Shown: positions 50,023 through 53,905 of the stretch, in pieces
Position numbering within the stretch: position 1 is the stretch's first letter
Layout: each line of letters starts with the position of its first letter
Assembly: GCF_011764445.1 (NCBI RefSeq)
Contig: NZ_BLPG01000001.1
Location: 3,658,001-3,722,000, forward strand
DNA from: Phytohabitans rumicis
GTDB lineage: Bacteria; Actinomycetota; Actinomycetes; Mycobacteriales; Micromonosporaceae
Reading direction: 5' to 3'
DNA: 64,000 nucleotides
Notes under the pieces: model-generated
What the model saw: only the letters and a program-made list of their open reading frames with translations
Told to the model about the DNA's origin: nothing
Database searches by the model: none
Made by a program: the position numbers and the translations under genes

Positions 50023-52590
50023 CTAGGTCACGGCGCGCAGCCTGCGGACCTCGCCCAACGGCGTCGGTTCGGCCTCGGTGCGGGCGCCGAACCACGCCTC
50101 CAGCCGCTCGTACGGCAGCGGGCGGCTGAACAGGAAACCCTGGCCGATCTCGCAGCCCATCTCCTTGAGCAGCTCGAGCGTCAGCTCGCTCTCCACGCCC
50201 TCGGCGACCACGGTCAGCCCGAACTGCAACGACAGCGCGACCACGGCCCGCACGATCGCCAGATCGCCCGCGTCCGTCGCCATCCCCTGCACGAACGACC
50301 GGTCGATCTTCACCTCGTGCACCGGCAGCCGCCGCAGGTACGACAGCGACGAGTACCCGGTGCCGAAGTCGTCCACCGACAGCCGTACCCCCAGGTCACG
50401 GAGCCGGCGTAGGGTGGGCAACGGGCGGTCGTTCGGGCCGACGACGCCGTCTTCCTTGATCTCGAAGGTCACCTGCTCGGGCGCCACGCCGTACTCCCGC
50501 AGGAGCGCGTCGACGCGGCCCGGGAAACCCGGGTCGACCAGCGTACGCGGGGAGAGATTGACCGCGACGGACAGCGGGCGGTCCGCGTCGGCCCACTCCC
50601 GGCAGCGCCGCAGCCCTTCCTTGAGGACCGCCTCGGTGAGCCGGCCGAGCTGGCCGGTGTGCTCCGCCACCGCGACGAAGTCCTCCGGGGCGACCGCGCC
50701 GTGCGCCGGATGCTCCCAGCGGGCCAGGCACTCCACCCCGACCAGCCGGCGGTCGGTCAGCGTCACCTTCGGCTGGAAGTAGACCTCCAGCTCGTCGTTG
50801 TCGAGGGCGCGGCGCAGATCGCCGGCCAGCTCCAGCCGGCGCACCGACCGCGACTCCAGGCCGGCGCTGAAGAGCTGCACCCCACCGGGCACGGACTTCG
50901 CGGCGGTCGTCGCCACGTCGGCCCGCTGCAGCAGCGTCGCCGGATCGCTTCCATGATCCGGGTGTACGACGACGCCGACGGCTGTGTCGACGTCGATGGT
51001 CAGCGTGCCGAACTTGATCGGGTCGCGGACCTGCTCGCGCAGCTCGACGGCCAGCAGGGTGGCCGCGTCGGCGCTCTCCGAACGCAGCGTCACCACGAAC
51101 TCGTCGCCACCCACCCGGCCCACCAGGGCCGCCGGCGGGGCGAACGCGCGCAGCCGCTTGGCGACCTCGGCGAGCAGCTTGTCGCCGGCGGCGTGGCCGA
51201 GCGACTCGTTCACGTCGCGCAGCCGGTCGACGTCGAAGAGCAGCACCGCGACCACCTCGCCGGGCGCCCGGACGATGACCGACTCCTCCAGCGCCTCGGT
51301 GATCCGCCGCCGGTTGGCCAGCGCGGTGAGCCCGTCGTGGTACGCGTCGTAGCGCAGCCGGTCGACCAGCCGCGAATTTTCCACCGCGACGCCGGCGTGC
51401 GCGGCAATCGTCTCCAGCACGCGGACGTGGCCGGACGTGAAGTCGCCGATGTCGCCGAGCCGGTTGACCACCTCGAGCGTCCCGATGACCGCCTTGCCCG
51501 AACGGAGCGGGGTGACGATCAGGTCCTTGACTCCGCTCTCGCGCAGCGCCTGGCGCAGCGCGTCGTCGGCCTCGAACCGCGACCCCGCCGCCACCGTACG
51601 GCCGCCCGCCTCCTGCGCCCGGGCCCGGACGAGCGCCGGCGTCGGCACGACGTCGAGCAGCCCCGAGTCGTCGACCCGGGCGGAGAGCAGCACCTCAGGG
51701 TGCCGGCCCTGCGCCGGCAGCCACAGCGCCGCGTACTCCGCCTGCACCAACGCGCGGACCCGGAAGAGCAGGTCGTCGGCGAGCCCGCCGTCCTGGCCAC
51801 CCTTGCCGATCGCCCGGCTCAGGTCGTACAGCTCGGAGAGCATGCGGTGCTGGCCCAGGAACTGCGCGTACGAGCGGTACATGAGCAGCATGACCACGGC
51901 CAGGCCCAGCACCAGCAGGGCCGACCACGGGGTCACCTTGAGGACGAGCAGCACGATCAACCCGACCGCGACGTTGACCCCCACGGTCATGAGCAGCATG
52001 CGGTATCCGGTCCGGACGACCTCACGCCCGGCCGCGAGCCCTTGGATGACGGCGAAGACGCCGACCACCGAGACGAAGGTGGCCAGCGTGTACGTGGCGA
52101 CGGCGGCGAACAGGATCCCCCACGTGCCCGGCCCGACGCCCCGCATCGGGGGCAGCGCCAACAGCACCACGCCAGCGAGCGCGGTCGCGGCCGCAGCCCT
52201 GGCCACGTTGAACCAGAGCTTGACGGGCGGGAGCCGGCGGCGCAGCTGACCCACCAGCGCGGCGATCGTGAAGACCAGCACCACCACCACGGGTGGCAGG
52301 AAGAAGAACGCCAGCACCATCGGGATCTCGGTGACCACGACGGTGACGCCGTCCCGGCGTACGACGAAGGGAAGGATGACCACCTCGACGCCGACCGTGA
52401 TCGCCAGCAGCAGAGCCGCTACGGCGAGATCATTACCGGTGACGGAGTCATCGACCAGCGCCAAGCCGGTCGTCAGGATGACAGCGAAAAGCCCCAGTGG
52501 GCCCGTGATCAACCAGGCATCCTCGGCCGTGCGTCGTCTGGGCGCCTGCCGCGAAGACATGCCAATCAGGGAGTCGAGGAGACGGACCAC
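50023..52590 (-). CDS. Membrane-bound GAF-GGDEF-EAL cyclic-di-GMP protein
   Basis: In order, the 855-residue protein has about seven membrane segments (residues 27-240), a GAF domain (about 265-405), a GGDEF domain with intact GRVGGDEF near 492-499, and an EAL domain. The EAL domain has ECLARW in place of EALLRW (about 620), then FEIKED, DDFGTGYSSL (740-749), KIDRSFV and VAEGVE. Diguanylate cyclase activity is therefore likely. Phosphodiesterase activity is plausible, with key acidic residues kept but the signature varied. The GTG at 52590 overlaps the small gene upstream by 25 nt, and an ATG at 52560 is the alternative start. Confidence 0.92.
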   Translation of the reverse strand: MVRLLDSLIGMSSRQAPRRRTAEDAWLITGPLGLFAVILTTGLALVDDSVTGNDLAVAALLLAITVGVEVVILPFVVRRDGVTVVVTEIPMVLAFFFLPPVVVVLVFTIAALVGQLRRRLPPVKLWFNVARAAAATALAGVVLLALPPMRGVGPGTWGILFAAVATYTLATFVSVVGVFAVIQGLAAGREVVRTGYRMLLMTVGVNVAVGLIVLLVLKVTPWSALLVLGLAVVMLLMYRSYAQFLGQHRMLSELYDLSRAIGKGGQDGGLADDLLFRVRALVQAEYAALWLPAQGRHPEVLLSARVDDSGLLDVVPTPALVRARAQEAGGRTVAAGSRFEADDALRQALRESGVKDLIVTPLRSGKAVIGTLEVVNRLGDIGDFTSGHVRVLETIAAHAGVAVENSRLVDRLRYDAYHDGLTALANRRRITEALEESVIVRAPGEVVAVLLFDVDRLRDVNESLGHAAGDKLLAEVAKRLRAFAPPAALVGRVGGDEFVVTLRSESADAATLLAVELREQVRDPIKFGTLTIDVDTAVGVVVHPDHGSDPATLLQRADVATTAAKSVPGGVQLFSAGLESRSVRRLELAGDLRRALDNDELEVYFQPKVTLTDRRLVGVECLARWEHPAHGAVAPEDFVAVAEHTGQLGRLTEAVLKEGLRRCREWADADRPLSVAVNLSPRTLVDPGFPGRVDALLREYGVAPEQVTFEIKEDGVVGPNDRPLPTLRRLRDLGVRLSVDDFGTGYSSLSYLRRLPVHEVKIDRSFVQGMATDAGDLAIVRAVVALSLQFGLTVVAEGVESELTLELLKEMGCEIGQGFLFSRPLPYERLEAWFGARTEAEPTPLGEVRRLRAVT

Positions 52591-52721
52591 TCAAACCCGG
52601 CGAGCGGTGCGCTCCATTCGAACCCCATGGTGGTGAACCCGCCAGACCCCGCGACCACGCCGATCGCGAAGGCCAGCGCGAGAGCCAAGCCGGCCAAGCG
52701 GCCTAGTCTGCCTGCACGCAT
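52566..52721 (-). CDS. Tiny secreted or membrane peptide with two GFEW repeats
   Basis: The 51-codon frame from ATG 52721 is preceded by ACAGGAGCG at good spacing. It encodes a basic start (MRAGRLGRLAG), a hydrophobic stretch of about 18 residues (LALALAFAIGVVAGSGGF) and an extracytoplasmic tail that repeats GFEWS twice about 10 residues apart. It overlaps or nearly abuts the GGDEF-EAL gene, implying coupled translation. I do not recognise a named family. A signal peptide or single-pass peptide linked to cyclic-di-GMP signalling is an inference. Confidence 0.6.
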   Translation of the reverse strand: MRAGRLGRLAGLALALAFAIGVVAGSGGFTTMGFEWSAPLAGFEWSVSSTP

Positions 52722-53148
52722 CGAACGCTCCTGTCGGGGTAACCGCATGTGACTGCCATCTAAGATGGTGAAGCCCATCGTGCCACACCTACGGCTCGTG
52801 ACACATCCTGATCCGCCGCTAAGAACCACACTGCGCAAAAACATGTCTGAACGGCTGATCGAAAGCTTAGGTAGTCATTAGGGCCCCACCTGCAACGGGA
52901 GTTTACGCAGCCCCGGGCCCGTTGGCGAGCCCCGTCCGCGGTGTTGAGAAAGACCCGATTTTCCCGTCTCCAAGTCGGAGCAAGACTCACTTTTGTGCGT
53001 GATTTGCGGAGCTTCGCCACTCGGTCTCGTTTGTCCGTAGCTCGCCGCATCGGTCCGTTACGGAGGGCTCGTTCCCTGTATGCCACTTACGCCCCTCAGC
53101 TCCGCAGGCCCGGGTGCGGCGTCCACTGTGGTCGGCGACGGCAACGGG
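52722..53148. other. Gene-free region upstream of the GFEW peptide gene
   Basis: No frame here has a credible start site and recognisable product. It is less GC-rich than its surroundings in places (for example 52800-52880) and probably holds the promoter of the peptide and GGDEF-EAL genes. I could not settle a promoter. A TAAA-16-GGCCCTAA arrangement on the minus strand near 52882-52909 is only a weak match to WhiG/FliA-type sites. Confidence 0.4.
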
Positions 53149-53182
53149 AAAGCCCCCGCCAGCGTCGGCTGACGGGGGCTTT
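53149..53182 (-). terminator. Terminator of tRNA-Tyr
   Basis: Arms of 15 nt with an AAAGCCCCCG core pair with one mismatch around a 4-nt loop. They lie 12 nt beyond the tRNA 3' end. A short T run is present on either strand, so it could work both ways. Confidence 0.75.
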
Positions 53183-53193
53183 TGCCCAGCAAG

Positions 53194-53274
53194 TGGCGGG
53201 TAGAGGATTCGAACCTCTGTAGCTTTCGCGACGGATTTACAGTCCGCTCCCATTGGCCGCTCGGGCAACCCGCC
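53194..53274 (-). tRNA. tRNA-Tyr (anticodon GTA)
   Basis: An 81-nt class II tRNA is present on the minus strand, with acceptor GGCGGGT/ACCCGCC, anticodon loop CTGTAAA, a long variable arm (GTCGCGAAAGCTAC region), T loop GGTTCGAATCC and discriminator A. CCA is not encoded. Confidence 0.96.
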
Positions 53275-53410
53275 TAGGGCGTGCCGCCACGGCGATCGCG
53301 GCAGCGGAAGCAAGGATAGCGGTTGCACCGGCCCATCACGCAACCGGGTACGGTCGGCATGTCACGGCCCCGAGAACATCTTCATATCGTCGCAAAGCAG
53401 GAGCATGACC

Positions 53411-53905
53411 ATGGCAGCCAACCCGTCGTTCGACATCGTCAGCAAGGTCGACCGGCAGGAGGTCGACAACGCCCTCCGGCAGGCGGAGAAGGAGCTCACG
53501 ACGCGCTTCGACTTCCGCGGCACTGGGGCCCAGATCTCCTGGTCGGGCGAGGAAGCGGTCAGCCTCCAGGCGGAGACCGAAGACCGGGCCAAGGCCGCCC
53601 TCGAGGTCTTCAAGGACAAGCTGGTCAAGCGCAACATCTCGCTCAAGGCGCTGGACGCGGGCGAGCCCCGGACGTCCGGCAAGACCACCAAGATCGACTG
53701 CACGATCGTCCAGGGCATCGACCAGGAGAAGGCGAAGGCCATCGGGAAGAAGATCCGCGACGAGGGCCCCAAGGGCGTTCAGGCGCAGATCCAGGGCGAC
53801 CAGCTGCGCGTCACCGGCAAGAAGAAGGACGACCTGCAGGCCGTGATCGCGCTGCTCAAGGAGTCGGACTTCGGGATCGCCCTGCAGTTCACAAATTACC
53901 GGTAG
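53411..53905 (+). CDS. YajQ family nucleotide-binding protein
   Basis: The 164-residue product from ATG 53411 (AGGAG 7 nt upstream, better spaced than the ATG at 53405) begins [20 protein letters not shown]. It contains TRFDFRGTG, the [19 protein letters not shown] core and ends [12 protein letters not shown]. YajQ proteins are two-domain RRM-like nucleotide binders, and some bind cyclic-di-GMP in other bacteria. That is suggestive next to a GGDEF-EAL gene but unproven. Its last 17 bases overlap the convergent MFS gene. Confidence 0.93.

Follow-up and report, generated by a model that had tools for sequence, protein, structure and literature searches.

What does a short open reading frame directly upstream of a gene for a membrane-bound GGDEF-EAL protein encode, and what could its product have to do with that protein? 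The question is raised by one locus of the window (the whole stretch of 64,000 nucleotides from Phytohabitans rumicis that was analysed), where a minus-strand frame running from ATG 52721 to the stop at 52566 (52566..52721, stop codon included) translates into the 51-residue peptide MRAGRLGRLAGLALALAFAIGVVAGSGGFTTMGFEWSAPLAGFEWSVSSTP. The preliminary description had noted a well-placed ribosome site and a product made of one hydrophobic helix and a tail with two GFEWS repeats, and all of these were found: the Shine-Dalgarno sequence AGGAG (52728..52732, minus strand) lies 6 nt 5' of the ATG, residues 1 to 25 (52647..52721, minus strand) form a basic N-terminus with a hydrophobic helix that could be a signal or an anchor, and the GFEWS copies occupy residues 33 to 37 (52611..52625, minus strand) and 42 to 46 (52584..52598, minus strand). 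The two copies are identical as protein and differ as DNA at 4 of 15 nt, all synonymous, and a DNA repeat scan reported no repeat between them. An exact 5-residue repeat in the tail of the peptide was reached by none of 400 shuffles. Considering the Shine-Dalgarno sequence, the helix, the core motif and the conservation of the frame described below, the 51-residue ORF is a genuine small gene, hereafter the precursor gene.

The adjacent gene (50023..52560, minus strand; 845 aa from the conserved ATG) encodes a membrane sensor, the putative receptor, which comprises, with numbering from the ATG start and all on the minus strand, a membrane domain (residues 1 to 250, 51811..52560), a GAF domain (residues 261 to 393, 51382..51780), a GGDEF domain with an intact GGDEF motif (residues 406 to 556, 50893..51345) and an EAL domain with the ECLARW signature and DDFGTG (residues 581 to 814, 50119..50820). 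The sensor thus carries the catalytic signatures of both the GGDEF and the EAL domain and is predicted to be an active enzyme. A Pfam match to ELFV_dehydrog (E 0.037) appeared chance-like and was discarded. According to the preliminary description, the precursor gene overlaps the start of the sensor gene, which is probably wrong, as the overlap depended on a start at GTG 52590. Seven aligned orthologs, namely six from the same genus, counting the window, and a seventh from a different genus, begin at the equivalent of ATG 52560, with M1 and R4 invariant, so the two genes are most likely 5 nt apart, and the sensor gene very probably starts at ATG 52560, 5 nt past the peptide stop and without a Shine-Dalgarno sequence of its own.

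The peptide was found in 5/5 other genomes of the same genus that were searched. A BLAST search with the peptide alone over 61 genomes gave E <0.01 solely within the genus, and more distant members were reached via the sensor gene, the N-terminal domain of which is present in 298/300 genomes of the family (Micromonosporaceae for the named members). The best 80 of 107 related stretches defined by this domain in a scan of named genomes (hereafter named loci) were subjected to an ORF selection based on a Shine-Dalgarno sequence, a hydrophobic helix and a basic residue near the start, that is, blind to tryptophan, although the W motif had already been seen in these loci before the selection was written. 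A candidate ORF was recovered upstream of the sensor gene in 80/80 named loci, and past residue 20 all 80 carry [FYWILVM]-x-W; as a control, the selection was applied to 1402 positions picked at random from these loci, which yielded 7 candidates, 1 with a core. Among the sensors of the named loci, the GGDEF motif is intact in 66/80 and altered or not found in 14/80, and ECLxRW and DDFG[TS]G are each present in 79/80. Of 50 further primary sensor loci, all from the family, the strict selection was passed by 45; 3 (G022, G033 and G070) passed under relaxed criteria only, and 2 (G018 and G019, the sensors of which are divergent) had no precursor. A further set of 123 loci (100 newly fetched and 23 earlier ones, 6 of them shared with the 50-locus set) gave 122 passes, all 122 with tryptophan, the remaining locus being that of G040, where a repeat ORF with DGAGWG twice fails the strict selection and has no Shine-Dalgarno sequence of at least 4 bases. 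In total, 41 of the 44 genera sampled in the family were tallied as having precursors, with relaxed criteria needed for 3 of them, and the 269 precursors correspond to 225 distinct ones, many loci being from the same or close species. Hence, loss of the reading frame in relatives, which the preliminary description had named as the outcome that would speak against the gene, is excluded by its conservation in the same genus, the named loci and the genera of the family, and there is strong support for the product being a genuine small protein linked to the sensor.

Outside the family, precursors were present in both of the sensor-bearing genomes among 3 genomes of f5 (G040, and G055, the precursor of which ends in GVVWL) and in 1/5 genomes of f43 (G358, GTRWG twice). 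Sensor loci that yielded no precursor were those of G421, G407, G392, G375, G339, G336, G051, G042 and G054, and the small ORF present at the sensor locus of G048 and G517 has no core. Second, diverged sensor copies in the same genomes (L202, L203, L224, L226, L227 and L228, which match the profile of the sensor membrane domain) were accompanied by a precursor in 0/6 cases and are possible receptors of other ligands. Two separate frames (L196 and L201, profile positions 1–142 and 141–306) make up the sensor of genome G034, the precursor of which ends in FEWN. A peptide profile built from the alignment A2 (see below) was rejected as a genome finder, being unspecific, with matches in 73/81 genomes at E ≤0.1, mostly to unrelated frames; its second match in the window's own genome had an E of 0.012.

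As for the surroundings, a 697-aa open frame on the plus strand (50659–52752) runs antisense to the precursor and sensor genes and is most likely a high-GC by-product. A divergent YajQ/DUF520 gene (PF04461; 53405–53905, plus strand) lies near the pair, with a tRNA-Tyr gene (53193–53274, minus strand) in between. The YajQ family has c-di-GMP-binding members elsewhere; as a conserved third partner, the gene was dropped, being located at most 3 kb away in only 23/80 named loci. Genes for tRNA-Thr and tRNA-Met follow the sensor gene in 12/12 loci inspected (L036–L039, L041 and L044–L050).

The alignment A2 holds 80 members (78/80 named loci, the window and L007; L048 and L114 were omitted owing to their repeats) and contains three invariant columns, which correspond to the start methionine, an arginine and the tryptophan. 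The GFEW repeats highlighted by the preliminary description are present in the window, but the motif is better described as [DEG]-[FYVIL]-x-W-x (hereafter W-type core), with D in position 1 in 128/202 members and E, I, V or D in position 3 in 172/202 W-type members, the core itself being defined by its tryptophan. Cores vary across species (e.g., DFEWN, DIIWQ, EYDWD and DVIWL), are 5 to 6 residues long and occur in one to eight copies per precursor, the longest precursor being of 122 aa. Exact repeated cores are found in 45/225 precursors, including DYSWG six times (L048), DVVWG five times (L268), DIVWQ four times (L297) and DHEWH three times (L236). Tryptophan is the last or second-last residue in 96/225 precursors; 55 W-type and 21 tryptophan-less precursors of 147 have a core at the exact C-terminus, and 4 to 33 residues follow the last W-type core in 70/125 W-type precursors. 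A strict AxA motif near the expected cleavage site was recognized in 123/225 precursors and was absent in 102/225, that of the window included; an N-terminal basic residue and hydrophobic helix had been required by the selection.

The cores are uniform within a precursor and diverse between precursors. Among the pattern-fitting cores, which are present in 178/203 W-type precursors, identity was 0.95 within a precursor (29 precursors) vs 0.41 between precursors, with related species not being independent, and when the cores were shuffled among precursors, the within-precursor identity was at most 0.54. Identical copies still differ at 303 of 3120 nt compared, differences that are synonymous by construction, indicating that not all of them are fresh duplications. 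Such variation between species, combined with uniformity within a precursor, would be expected from a shared receptor.

A second class of cores was found in the distant genus g12, which may be Glycomyces. An ORF of the same kind, with a GTG start, is located at the same place in 22/22 genomes of g12, but its tail is free of tryptophan; x-S-x-[DE]-[IVL]-x (GSGEIA, NSGDVS, NSADVG, GSGELN, VSGEIN and others) occurs there one to eight times, with 2 to 8 hexapeptide copies in 21/22 genomes. The precursor ends exactly at a core, next to the stop codon, in 21/22 cases and carries strict AxA in 19/22. The tryptophan-less cores mirror the W-type ones, with an identity of 0.97 within (21 precursors) vs 0.50 between precursors, here too with related species not being independent, and of at most 0.64 after shuffling among precursors.

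In 63 close pairs, the pN/pS ratio was 0.52 for the signal region, 0.67 for the linker before the core and 0.56 for the core without its tryptophan, as for a translated frame under amino-acid selection in all three regions; the core is not visibly more constrained than the signal region (0.56 vs 0.52). With the tryptophan counted, the core value was 0.43, and because the core was defined by its tryptophan, the unchanged residue in close pairs is not evidence. The tryptophan-less precursors were left out of this analysis and of the coevolution analysis. In the latter, the divergence of the core across 89 disjoint close pairs tracked that of the sensor membrane domain (r 0.71) more closely than that of the GAF domain (r 0.56). 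The partial correlation was 0.52 for the core vs the membrane domain given GAF and −0.05 for the core vs GAF given the membrane domain. The signal region, used as a control, gave a partial r of 0.54 in the same set, thus behaving like the core, so that part of the trend reflects the membrane domain being a better clock. At closer distances, the core reached a partial r of 0.55–0.60 vs 0.38–0.44 for the signal region, and with both GAF and the signal region fixed, the core and the membrane domain retained a partial r of 0.42–0.51. At the level of single columns, the top value in the 89 pairs was 0.28, below the 95% permutation maximum of 0.40; a first run with 897 overlapping pairs had columns 97, 108, 71, 122, 76 and 73 on top. 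The lid-side loops (see below) exceeded the rest with p 0.04 and the outer loops did not (p 0.98), both values being uncorrected and from the 89 pairs. Collectively, these results are only suggestive of coevolution between the core and the sensor.

A structural model was made of the first 250 residues of the sensor (pLDDT 91.7, from 92 sequences). In the model, the membrane domain has the six-helix fold of ECF S-components: in a second-look structural alignment, the first 22 matches listed are all ECF S-components or CbiM/NikM, with Z of 10.3–13.0 and the next one at 7.3, although Z up to approximately 13 can be chance for helical bundles. Given this high chance level and the weak Foldseek E-values (0.012 and worse), the fold assignment leans on the consistency of the list. 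An extra, eighth hydrophobic helix (residues 213 to 228, mean hydropathy 2.46) follows H6. Across 224 sequences, the mean number of lysines and arginines is 3.5 at the N-terminus, 2.0 in L1, 3.0 in L3, 1.6 in L5 and 3.3 after the last helix, compared to 0.1–0.8 in the loops of the opposite side. Because the enzyme domains must be cytoplasmic, and judging from helix parity and these charges, the side corresponding to the lid of S-components seems to face the cytoplasm, inverted relative to the transporters. Two tryptophans, W147 and W212, located in the loops predicted to be on the outside, are each 0.99 conserved in 147 sensor sequences.

We consider it rather probable that an exported oligopeptide pheromone is made from the product of the small gene and that the adjacent GGDEF-EAL protein is its receptor. 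The precursor would be exported through its N-terminal helix, proteases would release the cores of 5 to 6 residues, one to eight per precursor, and the membrane sensor would act as the receptor of the released cores. If the lid loops are cytoplasmic, an external peptide would find nothing but very short loops to contact, unless it were re-imported. A wider version, in which species-specific, multi-copy exported pheromones across the Micromonosporaceae act through receptors of the S-component fold directly on c-di-GMP, perhaps once they have been brought back into the cytoplasm, where the lid side of the receptor would lie, is held tentatively, as it falls somewhat short of being probable. Concerning the role of the peptide, the preliminary description had offered ligand, inhibitor and membrane partner; of these, the identical tandem copies and the exact C-terminal cores favour a ligand.

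The main rival is a membrane-anchored small regulatory subunit, the outer motif of which would serve as a lid, plug or co-sensor without being released. The conserved pairing with a membrane sensor and the nearly invariant W147 and W212 in its putative outer loops fit this possibility, and the lack of strict AxA in 102/225 precursors, among them that of the window, which might for this reason be anchored in the membrane, points in the same direction. However, a subunit of this kind would hardly call for up to eight near-identical tandem copies in precursors of up to 122 aa, for a core placed right at the C-terminal end, as in 55 W-type and 21 tryptophan-less precursors of 147, or for strict AxA in 19/22 precursors of g12, and we regard it as unlikely. 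Even less credit is due to the idea that the peptide is exported to serve as an antimicrobial, surface or metal-binding peptide, which the sensor only regulates or senses indirectly: toxins and surface components are known among small exported peptides that differ between species and bear repeats, and tryptophan-rich peptides are often membrane-active, but the pairing with one sensor clade, with 0/6 at the second copies, and the short and variable cores make it quite improbable. Least probable is a cis-acting leader, the translation of which would couple to or attenuate that of the sensor with no function for the peptide. The 5-nt gap and the missing Shine-Dalgarno sequence in the window and the constant gene order at paired loci speak for it; against it are a distance of 27 to 180 nt to the inferred sensor start in 122 precursor loci, a Shine-Dalgarno sequence near some sensor start in 61/80 named loci (a lenient count), the near-identical repeats, the swap of tryptophan for another repeat class in g12, a riboswitch scan of 52300–53500 that returned no riboswitch, only the tRNA and a sub-threshold sRNA match, and, making a SecM-like arrest unlikely, a helix that would not yet have left the ribosome tunnel by the time the core is synthesized.

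If the pheromone reading is correct, a direct route from a peptide to c-di-GMP would exist in a group of antibiotic producers, in 41/44 sampled genera. To our knowledge, many membrane-bound c-di-GMP enzymes are without a known signal. Here, the genome itself supplies the sequences of candidate ligands, which could be synthesized as penta- or hexapeptides, and this renders the signal of the sensor directly testable. Sensory domains without a known purpose are also recorded in the available text of a 2022 census (PMC8846402), in which the word "pheromone" occurs 0 times and "peptide" a single time, where it denotes one class of ligands of periplasmic binding proteins.

In line with the preliminary description, which recognised no described family, there is strong support for the peptide belonging to none that could be found. 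When the 80 members were scanned against Pfam and NCBIfam, no family was matched by more than 2/80 (best E 0.004 for Pfam and 0.008 for NCBIfam), and no match exceeded its cut-off for another 8 and 7 precursors, 5 of g12 among them. No account of this peptide–sensor pair was found in the open-access literature. On the side of the sensor, the membrane domain resembles the MASE-type domains of GGDEF/EAL proteins in being an N-terminal multi-helix sensor of unknown ligand; a weak match to MASE9 was obtained for 1/92 members (E 0.0012), and, with E ≤0.01 as the limit, none of the other 91 matched a MASE domain. We know of no MASE domain paired with a propeptide gene. The fold is, in the model, like that of the ECF S-components and 5TMR domains (LytS/BtsS/YpdA), but an inverted orientation is implied by the additional helix that follows H6 and by the distribution of charges, and 5TMR-LYT (PF07694) is not among the 6 Pfam families matched by the 92 members at E ≤0.01. 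Neighbour-encoded peptide ligands of the S-component fold are not known to us. According to the accessible part of PMC11109136, transporters and receptors alike employ this fold to bind ligands, and its fusions to GAF, GGDEF and EAL domains have been published.

The closest parallel to the precursor is offered by the Phr/RRNPPA systems of Bacillota. The receptors of RRNPPA systems are TPR proteins, and no TPR was detected in the Pfam scan of the window's sensor. Since the product of the neighbouring gene is not such a receptor, the pair is not an RRNPPA system. As outlined in the available portion of PMC11343458, RRNPPA propeptides are small, exported and encoded beside the receptor gene, with a mature peptide of 5 to 10 residues that is typically C-terminal, and some carry 1 to 4 identical or slightly modified copies. 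The anatomy is alike, with a small propeptide encoded beside a putative receptor gene and with short cores that are C-terminal or repeated; unlike in the Phr/RRNPPA systems, the neighbour is a membrane GAF-GGDEF-EAL enzyme rather than a cytosolic receptor, the host belongs to the Actinomycetota and the cores, in up to eight copies, are centred on tryptophan or follow x-S-x-[DE]-[IVL]-x, the comparison with Phr peptides at the sequence level being that of the Pfam and NCBIfam scans. Because the analysis turned up no peptide family homologous to this one and no published pair linking a peptide to c-di-GMP, we regard the system as categorically new; if judged on precursor anatomy alone, it would be a variant of peptide signalling.
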